A program made the translations under genes and the position numbers. Positions 28,637 through 39,216 of a DNA stretch of 64,000 nt are shown in pieces; the stretch's first letter is position 1, and each line of letters starts with the position of its first letter. Origin of the DNA: Comamonadaceae bacterium (GTDB taxonomy: Bacteria > Pseudomonadota > Gammaproteobacteria > Burkholderiales > Burkholderiaceae_C). Where the stretch lies: positions 62,001 through 126,000 of the forward strand of contig CANGLW010000004.1 in the NCBI GenBank assembly GCA_947454955.1, given 5' to 3'. Under the pieces are notes generated by a model. The model worked only from the letters and a program-made list of their open reading frames with translations, had not been told where the DNA came from and made no database searches.

Positions 28637-31375
28637 TCATAGATTGGGTGCGAGCAAACGCTCAAGGTCTTTTTCTGCCACCTGTCGGCGCTGGGCCATG
28701 TCCACCAACTGGTCATGCCCGATGCGGCCCACATTGAAGTAAGTGCTCTCGGGGTGCGCCATGTAAAAACCGCTCACACTGGCTGCAGGTGTCATGGCCA
28801 GGCTCTCGGTCAGGCCCATGCCGATGTCGGCGCACTGCAGCAGTTCAAACATCTCGCGCTTGAAGCTGTGGTCGGGACAAGCGGGGTAACCCGGCGCGGG
28901 GCGAATGCCGCGGTACTTCTCGGCAATCAGGTCTTCGGCGCTGAGCTGTTCATCGGCCGCGTAACCCCACAGGTCGGTGCGCACGCGGTGGTGCAAGCAC
29001 TCGGCAAAGGCTTCGGCCAAGCGGTCGGCCAGGGCCTTGAGCATGATGGCGGAGTAGTCGTCATGGTCATCCATGAAGGCTTTTTCTTTTTTCTCTACGC
29101 CCAAACCTGCGGTGACGGCAAACACACCGATGTAATCGGGTTTGCCGCTCGAAACATTATTTGCTCCTGATTTAGGAGCAACAAAGTCTGCCAGGCAGCG
29201 GCTGGGGCGCATTTTTCCATCCACCGCTGTTTTTTCAGTTTGCTGGCGCAAGCCGTGCCAAGTCATGGCCACTTGGCTGCGGGTCTCGTCGGTGTAGAGC
29301 TCAATGTCATCACCCACCGCGTTGGCAGGCCAAAATCCCATGACCGCATTCGCAGTGAGCCAACGGCCTTCAATCAAACGCTGCAACATGCGCTTGCCGT
29401 CTGAGAACACACGCTGTGCTTCGTGGCCCACCACCTCGTCTTTGAGGATTTGCGGGAACGGTCCGGCCAAGTCCCAGGTCTGGAAGAACGGGCCCCAGTC
29501 GATGAACTTGGCCAACTCAGCCAGGTCAAAGTTTTTGAACACGCGTCGGCCGATGAACTTCGGTTTGGGTGGCGTGTAGTTGGCCCAAGAAATGGGCGTG
29601 GCATTCGCGCGCGCTTGGGCCAGCGGCCACAAGGGGGTTTGTTTTTTGTTGGCGTGCTGTTGGCGTACGCGCTCGTAGTCGGCGTTGAGTTCGTCGATGA
29701 ACTTGGTGGCCTGATCTGACAACAAACCTTGGGCCACGCTCACGCTGCGCGAAGCATCGGGCACATACACCACCGGGCCTTCGTAATGCGGCGCAATTTT
29801 CACAGCAGTGTGCACGCGGCTGGTGGTGGCCCCGCCGATGAGCAGCGGGATTTTTTTGATGCGGAAATGCGCGTCTTTTTGCATCTCGGCGGCCACGTAC
29901 TGCATCTCTTCCAGGCTGGGCGTGATCAAGCCGCTCAGGCCCACGATGTCTGCGCCCTCCACTTTGGCGCGCGCCAAAATTTCGTGGCAAGGCACCATCA
30001 CGCCCATGTTGATGACCTCGAAGTTGTTGCACTGCAAGACCACGGTGACGATGTTTTTGCCGATGTCGTGCACATCGCCTTTGACAGTGGCAATCACAAT
30101 CTTGCCCTTGGCGCGCACGTCTTGACCGGCCGCTTCTTGCTGGCGTTTTTCTTCTTCAATATAGGGGATCAAATGCGCCACGGCTTGCTTCATCACGCGC
30201 GCACTTTTCACCACTTGGGGCAAAAACATTTTGCCCGCGCCAAACAAATCGCCCACCACGTTCATGCCATCCATCAACGGGCCTTCAATCACGTGCAACG
30301 GGCGTCCGCCTTTGGCCAGTATGGCTTGGTAGGCCTCTTCGGTGTCCACGGTGATGAAGTCGGTGATGCCATGTACCAGCGCGTGGCTCAAACGTTCATT
30401 CACGTTGCCCGCGCGCCAGGCCAGCTTTTGCGTTTCGTCTTTGGCAGCGCCCTTGGCGTTCTCAGCAATTTCCACCAATCGCTCGCCCGCGTCCGCGCGG
30501 CGATTGAGCACCACGTCTTCCACCCGCTCGCGCAGCTCGGGCTCGATGTCGTCGTACACGCCCACCATGCCGGCATTCACAATGCCCATGTCCATGCCCG
30601 CGGCAATCGCGTGGTACAGAAACACGGTGTGAATCGCCTCGCGCACCGGGTCGTTGCCGCGGAATGAAAAGCTCACATTGCTCACACCGCCCGACACCTT
30701 GGCGCCAGGCAGGTGTTGCTTGATCCAGCGCGTGGCCTCGATGAAGTCCACCGCGTAGTTGTTGTGCTCTTCAATGCCGGTGGCAATGGCGAAGATGTTG
30801 GGGTCAAAAATGATGTCTTCGGGCGGGAAGTCCACCTCGTCGACCAGCACGCGGTAAGCGCGCTCGCAAATCTCGACCTTGCGCTGGTAAGTGTCAGCCT
30901 GGCCTTGTTCGTCAAAGGCCATCACCACCGCGGCGGCGCCATAGCGTTTGATGAGCTTGGCCTGGCGCTTGAACTCGTCCAGGCCTTCTTTCATGGAGAT
31001 GGAGTTGACGATGCCCTTGCCTTGCACGCAACGCAAACCGGCCTCAATGACGCTCCATTTGCTGGAGTCAATCATGATCGGAACCCGCGAAATATCTGGC
31101 TCTGACGCTATCAAATTGAGAAAACGCACCATGGCGGCCTGGCTGTCGAGCATGGCCTCGTCCATGTTGATGTCGATGATCTGCGCGCCGTTTTCCACCT
31201 GCTGACGCGCTACGGCCAGGGCCTGCTCAAACTCACCATTGAGGATCATGCGGGCAAAGGCTTTGGAGCCGGTGACGTTGGTGCGCTCACCCACGTTCAC
31301 AAACAAACTGCCCGCACCCAGCGTGACCGGCTCAAGGCCAGCGAGCATCATTGGGGGTACGGAATGTGGGGTCAT
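28637..31375 (-). CDS. metH: Methionine synthase, folate/cobalamin/activation part (split MetH)
   Basis: A 912-residue protein comprising the C-terminal three-quarters of B12-dependent methionine synthase. The pterin-binding domain starts [20 protein letters not shown] (about 25-44). The cobalamin domain has the DxHxxG lower-ligand motif ([12 protein letters not shown] near 434-445). The SAM activation domain is at the end ([18 protein letters not shown]). It lacks the homocysteine-binding domain, which is encoded by the gene at 38152-39216. The start is the ATG at 31375, just after an SAH riboswitch. Two AT-rich patches (29151-29186 and 31095-31125) lie inside it and preserve the frame. Confidence 0.93.
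29151..29186. repeat. AT-rich hairpin patch inside metH
   Basis: It contains a perfect 8-bp hairpin TTGCTCCT-gattt-AGGAGCAA and flanking A/T bases. It is one of the dispersed AT-rich GCTAT/ATAGC-type patches and is translated in frame. Confidence 0.6.
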
Positions 31376-31378
31376 GGT

Positions 31379-31398
31379 CTCACCTGTGGCTAGGTGAG
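31379..31398 (-). promoter_or_regulatory. Shine-Dalgarno-sequestering hairpin of the SAH riboswitch
   Basis: CTCACC/GGTGAG (6 bp, 8-base loop) covers the ribosome-binding AGGTGAG that precedes the metH ATG by three bases. It is the likely expression platform. Confidence 0.7.
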
Positions 31399-31453
31399 CG
31401 TCGTTGAATCAATCTCAAGCCTGACCCTGTTGGGCTGCAACGCTCCTTGAGAG
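31393..31453 (-). promoter_or_regulatory. S-adenosylhomocysteine (SAH) riboswitch of metH
   Basis: On the minus strand a P1 stem TCTCAAG (31452-31446) / CTTGAGA (31419-31413) encloses AGGAGCGTTGC and the CAGGCTTGAG segment, all conserved in SAH riboswitches. The pseudoknot is GAGCGTTG (31445-31438) with CAACGACGCTC (31406-31396). The pseudoknot strand overlaps CTCACC (31398-31393), which can instead pair with GGTGAG (31384-31379), the metH ribosome site. SAH binding would therefore free the ribosome site (ON switch). Confidence 0.88.
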
Positions 31454-31516
31454 AGCATGATTTTAACCGAGCCACTCGCTCTCGTGTGAGCTTTGTTGCG
31501 CAGCCCGAAAGACGGG

Positions 31517-33505: not shown

Positions 33506-33513
33506 GATGAGCT

Positions 33514-33576
33514 CCAAAACGTCAAGGGTTGAGGCCGTGATGACGACATGCCATCTCGGCGCCCCCTCTGTTTTGG
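33514..33576 (-). promoter_or_regulatory. Predicted expression platform of the glycine riboswitch (anti-SD pairing)
   Basis: In the dadA leader, TCCAAAAC (just after aptamer 2) can pair over 8 bp with GTTTTGGA at the ribosome-binding site (33520-33513 on the minus strand). The pairing would hide GGAG. This is a model from complementarity only. Confidence 0.55.
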
Positions 33577-33728
33577 ACCTGAGAGATTCGCCCTAAGGCT
33601 TGCTCCTGCGGTGTACTGGCAGACGAGGCCAGCAGCTCTTCAGAGTTTGTGCATAACACCGGTCCTTTTGCCTGAGAGATTCCGGGGCGGTTGCTCCTTC
33701 GGCGCTGCGTGTGCAGACTCTCCCGATG
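33576..33728 (-). promoter_or_regulatory. Tandem glycine riboswitch upstream of dadA
   Basis: Two glycine aptamers are read on the minus strand. Aptamer 1 (33662-33726) has GCGCCGAAGGAGCAACCGCC and GGAATCTCTCAGGCA; aptamer 2 (33576-33648) has CCGCAGGAGCAAGCC and GCGAATCTCTCAGG. Both are the conserved cores of the gcvT-type riboswitch. The first aptamer begins about 20 bases after the M20 amidohydrolase stop. Confidence 0.92.
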
Positions 33729-33748
33729 TTTGCGTGATTGTAAAAGCT

Positions 33749-34987
33749 TCAGTGCTGATGCGCTCCTTGAGGCAAGTCAAATGTCAGCACGTCTTGCACC
33801 AGCGCGACCCAATAGGACGCACCGATGTCGATGATGTTGTCGTTGAAATCGTAGCCCGGGTTGTGCACCATGCAAGCGTGCGGCAGATGAGCTGCATCTT
33901 GTGTATTCACGTCACCATTCACGCCACTTTTCACGCCGTTCCCGATCAACAGATAGCTGCCGGGCACACGCTCGAGCATGAAGGCAAAGTCTTCACTGCC
34001 GGTGAGCGCTGGGCCATGCAGGTTCACGCCATCTTGACCACACACCTGCACACCCACGCGGCGTGCGATGGCGGTGGGCTCGTCATGGTTCACCAGCACG
34101 CAGTAACCAGGCCGCCAATCGATCTCGGCACGCACCCCAAAACTTTGTGCTTGTGCGTGCACCAGGTCTTTGATGCGCTGCTCCAGCAAGGAGCGCACGT
34201 GCTGGTCTAAAGCGCGCACGCTGAGTTCCAACTTGGCCAGCGCAGGTATCACGTTGTTGGCTTGGCCGGCGTTGAACGCGCCCACCGTGACCACCGCGGT
34301 ATGCTGCGGGTCCACGTTGCGCGAAACCACGGTTTGCAGCGCCAACACCATGCTAGATGCCGCCACCACCGGGTCTGTGCCCAAGTGCGGCATGGCACCG
34401 TGCCCACCCACGCCATGCACACGGATGGTGACGTAGTCGCTCGAAGCCATCATGGCGCCATCGCGAAACACCAGCTGGCCAGCGGGCACGCCGGGCATGT
34501 TGTGCATGGCAAAAATCATGTCGCAGGGGTGTTGCTCAAACAGGCCGTCTTGCATCATGCGCAAGGCGCCACCACCACCTTCTTCGGCGGGCTGAAAAAT
34601 CACATTCAGCGTGCCATGAAATTCCAACTGCGACAAGGTTTTCGCTGCAGCGAGCAGCATGGCGGTGTGGCCGTCATGTCCGCAAGCGTGCATCAAACCA
34701 GGCTTGGTGCTGGCCCAGGGCAGGCCGTTGGTTTCTTGAATGGGCAGCGCGTCCATGTCGGCGCGCAAGCCCAGGGTGCGTGTGCTGCTGCCCTTTTTAA
34801 GCGTGCCCACCACACCGGTGCCACCCAAGCCGCGATGCACTTGGTAGCCCCAACCCTCGAGCTTGTTGGCCACCAGGTCTGCGGTGCGGTGCTCTTCAAA
34901 GGCCAGCTCGGGGTGTTGGTGAATCTCGCGACGCAGCGCGATGAATTCACCCACACGCTCGGTCAGCGCTTCACGCAAATAGCTCAT
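33749..34987 (-). CDS. M20 family amidohydrolase (hippurate/N-acyl-amino-acid hydrolase-like)
   Basis: A 412-residue metallopeptidase of the M20D type. The ATG at 34987 gives MSYLREALTERVGEFIALRREIHQHPELAFEEHRT, the canonical start; the open frame upstream is not conserved. Zinc-ligand motifs are visible: GLRADMDALPI, HACGHDGHTAMLL, and FQPAEEGGGGALRMM, then a dimerisation segment and a terminal GSEDFAFML. It should cleave an amide such as an N-acylglycine to a carboxylate and an amino acid. It directly follows the Bug receptor gene and directly precedes the glycine riboswitch. Confidence 0.87.
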   Translation of the reverse strand: MSYLREALTERVGEFIALRREIHQHPELAFEEHRTADLVANKLEGWGYQVHRGLGGTGVVGTLKKGSSTRTLGLRADMDALPIQETNGLPWASTKPGLMHACGHDGHTAMLLAAAKTLSQLEFHGTLNVIFQPAEEGGGGALRMMQDGLFEQHPCDMIFAMHNMPGVPAGQLVFRDGAMMASSDYVTIRVHGVGGHGAMPHLGTDPVVAASSMVLALQTVVSRNVDPQHTAVVTVGAFNAGQANNVIPALAKLELSVRALDQHVRSLLEQRIKDLVHAQAQSFGVRAEIDWRPGYCVLVNHDEPTAIARRVGVQVCGQDGVNLHGPALTGSEDFAFMLERVPGSYLLIGNGVKSGVNGDVNTQDAAHLPHACMVHNPGYDFNDNIIDIGASYWVALVQDVLTFDLPQGAHQH

Positions 34988-34988
34988 G

Positions 34989-35975
34989 TCACTGCGGCTG
35001 CAGGTTGATGGACTTGGCAATCGCGCGGAACTGCGCGGTGCCGTCGGCATACGCCTTGCCCACCTCAGCCAGGGACAAGGGCTTGGCCAGCAACTGGCTG
35101 TTGGCTTCCAGGCCGGTGCGCACGCCTGCATCGCTCAAGGTGTCGGTGATGGCTTTGTGGATGACTTGCACGATGGCCTCGGGCGTGTCTTTCTTCACAA
35201 AGTAACCGGTCCAGATGGTGAAGGTGAAATCTTTGAGGGCTTTGCTCTCGGTGATGGCGGGGAAATCTTTGACCATCGGCAGGCGTTCGCTGTTGAGCAC
35301 GGCCAGCACTTTGAGCTTGCCGGTCTTGTGCATCTCTTCGTATTTTTTGCCGTAAGGCGCCAAGAAAATATCGACCTGGCTGCCCATCAAATCTTGCTCA
35401 GCGGGTGCCGCGCCTTTGTAGGGCACGTGGGTCATCTCGATGTGGGTGACTTTGGAGAGGTGTTCGCCCAGCAGGTGATAGAACGAGCCTGGCCCCACGC
35501 TGGCGTAGGTGATGGGCTTGCCTTCTTTGGCCATCTTGGCCGCATACGCCACAAACTCGTCCACCGTGTTGACCGGCAAATCTTTGCGCGCCAAAAAGCC
35601 GATTTGCGCGGTGGCAATCATCTGCACCAGGCGGAAGTCTTCGCTCTTGAACTTCACCGCGGCATTGGCCAGGGGCGAGAGGATGAGCTCGTTGGGCGAG
35701 CCCTGAAAAATCATCATGCCGTCGGCCGGAGCGCTGAGCACTTTTTGCGCGGCAATCGCGCCACTCACACCACCCAGGTTTTCAATGATGACGGGCTGGC
35801 CGAAGTTTTTAGCCAGTGTGGTGTTGACGGTGCGGGCAATCACGTCCGACAGACCGCCGGCGGGGTAGGGCACCATCAAGGTGACGGGGCGGGCGGGGTA
35901 AGTTTGGGCGTGGGCCGCGCCACACAGCAGCAGCGCGGCTGCCAGGGCTTGGAGGGTGCTTGCAATGCGCTTCAT
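34989..35975 (-). CDS. Bug-family (tripartite tricarboxylate transporter) receptor
   Basis: A 328-residue periplasmic solute-binding protein with a signal peptide (MKRIASTLQALAAALLLCGAAHA) and the PARPVTLMVPYPAGGLSDVIARTVN start of Bug/TctC proteins. It is one base from the M20 amidohydrolase start, so the two are co-transcribed, and the receptor may bind the substrate that the hydrolase cleaves. No membrane genes (tctA/tctB) are near. It is divergent from a LysR regulator. Confidence 0.85.
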   Translation of the reverse strand: MKRIASTLQALAAALLLCGAAHAQTYPARPVTLMVPYPAGGLSDVIARTVNTTLAKNFGQPVIIENLGGVSGAIAAQKVLSAPADGMMIFQGSPNELILSPLANAAVKFKSEDFRLVQMIATAQIGFLARKDLPVNTVDEFVAYAAKMAKEGKPITYASVGPGSFYHLLGEHLSKVTHIEMTHVPYKGAAPAEQDLMGSQVDIFLAPYGKKYEEMHKTGKLKVLAVLNSERLPMVKDFPAITESKALKDFTFTIWTGYFVKKDTPEAIVQVIHKAITDTLSDAGVRTGLEANSQLLAKPLSLAEVGKAYADGTAQFRAIAKSINLQPQ

Positions 35976-38151: not shown

Positions 38152-39216
38152 TCAAGCGGCGGCCGCGTAAAACGCACCGCGGCTCAAGGCGCGGGCGTGC
38201 AGCGGCTTGACCGCCTCGCCGATGGCGTGGATGTGCTCGGGCGTGGTGCCGCAGCAGCCACCCACGATGTTGACCAAGCCTTCGGCTGCAAACTCTTGCA
38301 GCAATCGGCTGGTGACCTCGGGCGTTTCATCAAAGCCGGTTTCGCTCATGGGGTTGGGCAGACCGGCATTGGGGTAGCAGCTGATGAAGGTGTCGCCCGC
38401 CACCCGCGCCAACTCCTGGATGTAGGGGCGCATCAAGGCCGCGCCCAAAGCGCAGTTCAAACCCACCGCCAGGGGTTGGGCGTGGCGCACGCTGTGCCAA
38501 AACGCCGTCACCGTTTGGCCGCTCAAAATCCGACCCGACGCATCGGTCACCGTGCCGCTGATGATGAGCGGCAAGCGCTCACCGCTGGCTTCAAAGTATT
38601 CGTCAATCGCGAACAGCGCGGCCTTGGCGTTGAGGGTGTCAAAAATCGTTTCGACCAGCAGCACATCAGAGCCGCCTTCCACCAGGGCCTGCACTTGTTC
38701 GTAGTAGGCCGCGCGCAGTTCTTCGAAGTTGATGTTGCGCGCGCCGGGGTCGTTCACATCGGGGCTGATGCTGGCGGTCTTGGGCGTGGGGCCGAGCGCG
38801 CCCACCACAAAGCGGGGTTTGTCAGGCGTGCTGAATTTGTCGCAAGCCTCGCGCGCAATGCGGGCCGACTGCAGGTTCATCTCGCGCGCCAGGTGTGCCA
38901 TCTCGTAATCGGCCTGGGCGATGGTGGTGGCGCCAAAGGTGTTGGTCTCGATCATGTCGGCACCCGCGGCCAGGTAGCCTTCGTGGATGTCGCGAATCAC
39001 ATCGGGGCGGGTGATGCTGAGCAGCTCGTTGTTGCCCTTCACGTCTTTGGGCACGTCGGCAAAACGGGCCGCTTGCGCCGTGCCTTCGCCGCGGTACTGC
39101 GCCTCGCTCAATTTGAAGCGCTGGATCATGGTGCCCATGGCCCCGTCCAGAATGGCGATGCGCTGTTGCAGGATGCCTGGCAAGGCCTGGGCGCGGGTGT
39201 AGGTCACGGGTTTCAT
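38152..39216 (-). CDS. metH: Methionine synthase, homocysteine-binding part (split MetH)
   Basis: A 354-residue protein corresponding to the N-terminal domain of methionine synthase. The start [31 protein letters not shown] is the canonical MetH beginning. The zinc ligands for homocysteine are the cysteines in [17 protein letters not shown] near the end, plus an upstream Cys (NCALGAAL). It must act with the larger part at 28637-31375, about 6.8 kb away. This part has no SAH riboswitch in its leader. The same split is seen in many Burkholderiales. Confidence 0.92.

Follow-up and report, generated by a model that had tools for sequence, protein, structure and literature searches.

Organisation of the locus

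The window, by which is meant the whole stretch of 64,000 nucleotides of Comamonadaceae DNA that was analysed, carries on its minus strand, one after the other, a tctC gene, a gene for an M20 amidohydrolase, a glycine riboswitch at 33735-33558 and a gene for a DadA-type FAD dehydrogenase, referred to below as dadA (Table 1). A sequence-only reading of the same DNA had placed a tandem glycine riboswitch at 33576-33728, directly before a DadA-type gene. The adjacency is borne out, and the RF00504 search which that reading proposed returns both aptamers above the gathering score of 32 bits (70.9 and 37.4 bits); the interval covers both aptamer cores, yet it trims the element at both ends and leaves its strand unnamed.

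Table 1. Features of the minus-strand dadA locus (coordinates are positions in the window)
Feature	Position	Strand	Basis or remark
TctC-type solute-binding protein	34989..35975	-	PF03401, 146.9 bits; one base from the M20 gene
M20 amidohydrolase gene, directly upstream of the riboswitch	33749..34987	-	TIGR01891, 358.3 bits
TACAAT, possible -10 box of a promoter of its own	33737..33742	-	seen in the sequence; a guess
Glycine aptamer 1	33650..33735	-	RF00504, 70.9 bits, all 94 model positions
CGCCCC in aptamer 1, taken as P3b loop; putative partner of 33560-33565 (P5-type pseudoknot)	33684..33689	-	sequence
Glycine aptamer 2, weaker	33558..33653	-	RF00504, 37.4 bits, all 94 model positions
CCAAAAC, aptamer 2 joining strand to first P1 base; predicted anti-ribosome-site strand	33570..33576	-	predicted fold and covariation
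GGGGCG directly after aptamer 2; putative partner of 33684-33689	33560..33565	-	sequence
GUUUUGGAG, dadA ribosome-binding site region; predicted partner of 33570-33576	33512..33520	-	predicted fold and covariation
dadA-type FAD dehydrogenase gene, 423 aa	32234..33505 (ATG 33505)	-	NF009074; PF01266 (DAO)

A relative of the M20 gene adjoins dadA on its upstream side in 35 of the 80 named loci described below, and the amidohydrolase may act as a supplier of glycine, released from N-acyl-glycine. A promoter scan of the leader region gave no match. An intrinsic terminator was considered as the expression platform, and none was found at the riboswitch leader. In a related genome (G011, locus L149) the M20 gene lies upstream of the riboswitch as in the window, and the next gene encodes an E. 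coli-like DadA (36% identical); there, the enzyme behind the riboswitch may have been exchanged.

A second riboswitch, of the SAH class (31389-31454, minus strand; RF01057, 48.3 bits), lies directly before the gene for a methionine synthase of 912 aa, which is without the N-terminal part of the family profile. The methionine synthase is split between two minus-strand genes about 7 kb apart (28637-31375 and 38152-39216), profile positions 339-1229 lying in one and 7-338 in the other.

The tandem aptamers

The leader is, judged by its sequence, a glycine riboswitch of the RF00504 class, for which glycine binding is predicted. Aptamer 1 has an E-value of 8.5e-13 (64-kb window searched against all families), and aptamer 2 one of 6.1e-6 in a search of the whole genome, where it occupies positions 95558-95653 of contig 4 (the window being 62001-126000). 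Its absence from the all-family listing of the window is probably due to the dropping of lower-scoring overlaps of the same clan, the two aptamers overlapping by 4 bases. The source genome (2.78 Mb, 94.8% complete) yielded no further glycine riboswitch.

Two marks of ON-type glycine riboswitches are found in the leader. One is the presence of two aptamers, the first better conserved; aptamer 1 also outscores aptamer 2 in the five named loci where both are listed, with a model built mostly from strong aptamers. The other is the C-tract/G-tract pseudoknot after aptamer 2, both strands of which are present in the sequence and are predicted to pair. The two tracts occur together in 76 of 76 named leaders; in five loci CACCCC with GGGGUG replaces CGCCCC with GGGGCG, a matching change on both sides, and in one (L110) a single side of the pair is changed. 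Such a pseudoknot is described as common among ON glycine riboswitches and missing from OFF ones in the available part of PMC13104608, which cites Torgerson 2020 and there leaves unnamed the aptamer that bears the C-tract.

Conservation of the pairing between riboswitch and dadA

An aptamer model, for which relatives supplied 25 aptamers, was used to search 80 named loci; these belong to the 80 best-scoring out of at least 540 DadA relatives. An aptamer lies upstream of dadA in 76 of these nearest named loci, among them loci of Limnohabitans, Rhodoferax, Curvibacter, Malikia, Hydrogenophaga and Variovorax, as well as of Cupriavidus, Trinickia, Stutzerimonas, Halopseudomonas and Pseudomonas. 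One further locus (L065) is cut by a contig end and still retains the end of aptamer 2; the remaining three (L060, L061 and L067) gave no riboswitch match, and in them the M20 gene ends less than 90 bases from dadA. All of eight more distant, plasmid-borne copies, chosen from 731 records with a match, likewise have an aptamer before dadA (Halomonas, Paraburkholderia, Shinella, Mesorhizobium, Agrobacterium, Bosea, Cupriavidus metallidurans and Massilia), so that the pairing spans alpha-, beta- and gammaproteobacteria. In five distant plasmid copies (L152-L156) the stretch after aptamer 2 looks different by eye.

The association also follows the protein family. In 60 genomes (59 relatives and the source genome itself) the riboswitch lies directly before 15 of the 16 PRK12409 genes scoring above the cut-off, the sixteenth being cut by contig ends; other DadA-like matches of at least 200 bits, below the PRK12409 cut-off, in the same genomes have a riboswitch upstream in 9 of 65 cases and none in 56 (by hand). 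A wider set added 12 genomes with a PRK12409 gene above the cut-off, ten of which have the riboswitch directly before such a gene; two gcvP-less genomes of one genus (G128 and G231) have the gene and no RF00504 match, and a second PRK12409 gene of G235 has no RF00504 match nearby. A tandem glycine riboswitch was also seen in genome G032 (L014, from 1501), before a gene with a secreted-protein-like start, as judged by eye.

The DadA-type protein

The protein scores 738.3 bits against NF009074 (PRK12409, 'D-amino acid dehydrogenase'), well above the curated cut-off of 494, and stays below those of E. coli-type DadA (PRK00711; 342.3 bits, cut-off 383) and of ThiO (TIGR02352; 144.2 bits, cut-off 250.8). 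Its best matches among PDB sequences are glycine oxidases, at weak scores. Arg302 of ThiO, the carboxylate-binding residue, aligns with the arginine of WAGLRP (counted by hand), and Tyr246 of ThiO aligns with a lysine (by hand).

The DadA6 protein of Cupriavidus necator is called a glycine oxidase in PMC11879842, as far as the text at hand goes, and its gene was deleted there; the consulted part of PMC12421819 also treats it as a glycine-oxidising enzyme. The first of these sources reports that an engineered C. necator gained nothing from the deletion, a result that says little about the natural role of the gene. The dadA6-rev check primer matches, with one mismatch, 1163 bases upstream of dadA and 888 bases before the riboswitch in C. 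necator UYPR2.512 (L063), a strain other than the published one; the forward check primer gave no match at up to 5 mismatches in five Cupriavidus loci, and neither primer matched at up to 3 mismatches in the other 111 loci. With one of the two primers matched, the riboswitch-linked dadA of C. necator is probably the DadA6 gene.

From gene context and the published role of DadA6, the assignment of the window protein as a glycine-oxidising enzyme appears well supported; the protein may also act on D-alanine.

A predicted helix between aptamer 2 and the ribosome-binding site

The joining strand of aptamer 2 (33570..33576), here labelled J3/1, is complementary to the start region of dadA. Fold prediction for the window leader pairs UUUUGG of the ribosome-binding site with CCAAAA of J3/1 at a probability of 0.87. 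Covariation was assessed in 92 leaders, namely those of 77 named loci, the window and 14 relatives; the 77 named leaders comprise 74 distinct ones, two of the relatives have the same leader as a named locus, and distinct pairs were tested. The two strands change together: Stutzerimonas has TCCAGAAC with GTTCTGGA, three loci (L073, L076 and L088) have TACCAAGAC with GTCTTGGA, and L057 has TCTAAAAAC with GTTTTTAGGA; their lengths co-vary as well. For 72 distinct pairs, the duplex energy averages -6.77, while re-paired strands average -4.72 (sd 0.20; 0/10000); when each of the 22 distinct J3/1 sequences contributes a single pair, the averages are -6.20 and -4.19 (sd 0.36; 0/10000), the significance of this permutation test being inflated by the kinship of the leaders. 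Two control stretches of the same leaders gave no signal (2738/5000 and 4228/5000). In an earlier run a control stretch consisting of the 13 bases upstream had come out at 15/5000, a signal put down to ribosome-site segments that were wrongly chosen at some loci.

Pairing is poor in six leaders (L034, L042, L048, L052, L062 and L081), and the start codon was mis-picked in four (L112, L016, L017 and L019), which were retained and weigh against covariation. When J3/1 of the window leader is kept from pairing in the energy model, the ribosome site becomes free in part only, and much of it pairs elsewhere. Possibly only some members of the family have the J3/1 platform.

As to the direction of the switch, the available text of PMC13104608 proposes, from gcvT mutants of Neisseria gonorrhoeae, a translational ON switch whose OFF state has bases of aptamer 2 paired with the start region. 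Taken together, the ON-type marks of the leader, the covariation between J3/1 and the ribosome site and the N. gonorrhoeae case lead to the prediction that the dadA leader is a translational ON switch.

Glyoxylate as the likely product

Malate synthase G uses glyoxylate. In Mesorhizobium loti NZP2037 its gene starts 18 bases after dadA, before which lies a glycine aptamer. Among the 60 plasmid dadA records listed (65 in total; lists compared by hand), at least 15 have a malate synthase G gene adjoining dadA in the same orientation, one of the pairs spanning the start of a circular record. Ten of the 15 pairs are from Aminobacter, and the check for an aptamer covered one of the 15, that of M. 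loti. None of the other dadA loci examined has a malate synthase G gene. Since malate synthase G adjoins dadA in plasmid records, these pairs point to glyoxylate as the product of the DadA-type enzyme. Away from the dadA locus, the source genome has genes for malate synthase G (1182.5 bits) and for glyoxylate carboligase (1103 bits).

The glycine cleavage system

Neither gcvP nor gcvT was found in the source genome. Among 26 genomes of the source genus (its own included, some of them incomplete), a PRK12409 dadA is present in 16 and gcvP in four, never together, which corresponds to a hypergeometric probability of about 0.014 (by hand, uncorrected for kinship or incomplete genomes); the exclusion may represent one or two events. 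One member of the genus (G018) has gcvT without gcvP, and no PRK12409 gene. A mutual exclusion of dadA and gcv throughout the family was considered and rejected: over 250 genomes PRK12409 occurs in 7 of the 31 without a gcvP match, 11 of these 31 being deduced from the compared genome lists, versus 37 of the 219 with one.

Outside the source genus, 16 of 28 gcvP-less genomes have a glycine riboswitch and 12 have none. A DadA-type gene follows the riboswitch in 15 of the 16, and gcvT (by eye) follows it in the last, a genome 78% complete. A glycine riboswitch is present in all 28 gcvP-positive controls, picked by hand at about even steps, and precedes a DadA-type gene in at least 16 of them (by coordinates); in G124 and G257, for instance, the pairing with dadA exists alongside a gcvP that has a riboswitch of its own. 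Hence, dadA is a common second target of the glycine riboswitch in the source family and, where gcvP is missing, it is nearly the sole target seen, apart from the gcvT just mentioned and a 42.4-bit match in G152 that lies at a contig end (C802). In two genomes gcvP is followed immediately by dadA in the same orientation (L147 in G124 and L148 in G255), with a glycine riboswitch between them in G124.

Interpretation

The reading that I regard as probable, and hold with some confidence, is that a surplus of glycine acts through a tandem riboswitch to turn on the translation of a DadA-type dehydrogenase that oxidises glycine. In the absence of the ligand, J3/1 of aptamer 2 would pair with the ribosome-binding site of dadA and block it, the helix being backed by covariation and the OFF state being its presumed place; upon glycine binding the two aptamers would fold and dock, the C-tract/G-tract pseudoknot would hold and the site would be freed. 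DadA passes electrons to the respiratory chain. The enzyme would convert glycine into glyoxylate and ammonia, the electrons probably entering that chain too, and malate synthase G and glyoxylate carboligase, both encoded in the source genome, could take up the glyoxylate. With no glycine cleavage system found, the DadA-type route may be the main outlet for glycine in the source bacterium. The suggestion of the sequence-only reading that the protein serves to oxidise glycine or to deal with a surplus of it thus gains support from the pairing in three proteobacterial classes, from the lack of gcvP and gcvT matches, from the malate synthase G pairs and from DadA6. Its view of the target as unusual needs correction: a DadA-type target is not rare in the source family, occurring in at least 16 of the 28 gcvP-positive controls.

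Glycine competes with D-alanine in wall synthesis. One may accordingly conceive of the enzyme as a true D-amino-acid dehydrogenase, glycine being only the signal, whose surplus disturbs the D-alanine metabolism of the cell wall; the name that NCBIfam gives to the PRK12409 family fits this picture, and the M20 neighbour could free D-amino acids as well as glycine. I consider it improbable, for the dadA-malate synthase G pairs point to glyoxylate, the riboswitch precedes a DadA-type gene in 15 of the 16 gcvP-less genomes that have a riboswitch, and DadA6 of C. necator is reported, in the portion of PMC11879842 consulted, as a glycine oxidase.

The direction of control could also be the opposite one, the helix between J3/1 and the ribosome site forming when glycine is bound and the leader being an OFF switch. 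In SAM-II and preQ1 riboswitches the ribosome-binding site is blocked when the ligand is bound, and the covariation of J3/1 is silent on the state in which the helix exists. A catabolic gene, however, is expected to be switched on, the leader bears the marks reported for ON switches and the gcvT mutants of N. gonorrhoeae suggest an OFF state with the start region masked by bases of aptamer 2 (both from the text at hand of PMC13104608), which leaves the OFF switch slightly less probable still than the D-amino-acid enzyme. As for the riboswitch being the relic of a lost gcv operon, useless at dadA, the failure to find gcvP and gcvT in the source genome speaks for it; the pairing in 76 of 80 named loci from many genera, the covarying platform and the occurrence of the pairing where gcvP is kept behind its own riboswitch make it scarcely credible. 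Both the relic reading and that of a chance match were rejected on the scores and the conservation.

A wider proposal, to which I give little better than even chances, is that the whole PRK12409 family is misnamed and would be a glycine dehydrogenase, forming with malate synthase G or glyoxylate carboligase a mostly riboswitch-controlled route from glycine to glyoxylate across alpha-, beta- and gammaproteobacteria, which would stand in for glycine cleavage in some of the lineages lacking it, the switch of the beta- and gammaproteobacteria being a helix from J3/1 to the ribosome site not described before. The riboswitch class, and a glycine-oxidising DadA in one species, are already known; what seems new is the general link between riboswitch and dadA, the likely correction of the family name and the J3/1-to-ribosome-site platform. 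If true, the proposal would provide a substrate for a large enzyme family named D-amino acid dehydrogenase in databases, an alternative RNA-controlled outlet for glycine where the glycine cleavage system is not found, and a compact, covariation-backed model of translational control by a tandem glycine riboswitch.

Comparison with known systems

In the available part of the literature, no link between a glycine riboswitch and dadA and no J3/1 platform was found; Torgerson 2020, Ruff 2016 and Claassens 2020 may mention them. The sections at hand of Sun 2013 (PMC3766115) distinguish twelve groups of glycine-metabolism genes, the word 'dadA' being absent from the main text. In the consulted text of PMC6944388 the only 'D-amino acid' belongs to a reference title, and in three other papers that contain both terms 'dada' stands for Dickeya dadantii or Dadabacteria.

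The leader resembles the ON-type tandem riboswitch before gcvT, as far as the latter is described in the text at hand of PMC13104608, in its two aptamers with one platform, its stronger first aptamer and its C-tract/G-tract pseudoknot; it differs from it in that the target is a DadA-type dehydrogenase and the ribosome site itself can pair with J3/1, whereas in some gcv leaders the stretch before the ribosome site seems, by eye, to match the 3' strand of P1 instead. As in N. gonorrhoeae gcvT, a translational ON switch with pairing between aptamer 2 and the start region in the OFF state is predicted here. In Neisseria, according to the same part of that paper, nucleotides of P3a, P3 and P1 pair with the bases immediately preceding the start codon, and conservation of the platform sequence within the genus is poor, whereas the strands of the dadA leaders covary across genera.

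Among enzymes, DadA6 of C. necator, with glycine oxidation reported in the portions at hand of PMC11879842 and PMC12421819, probably belongs to the same family as the window protein; those portions mention no glycine riboswitch linked to it. ThiO of the Bacillus type shares the DAO family with the window protein, and E. coli-type DadA the superfamily, the score of the window protein lying below the respective cut-offs of TIGR02352 and PRK00711. A related logic is found in Pelagibacter, where, according to the consulted part of PMC2211319, a glycine riboswitch precedes the malate synthase gene glcB and glycine controls a glyoxylate-using step; there the control bears on the glyoxylate sink, in the window on the putative glycine-oxidising enzyme.
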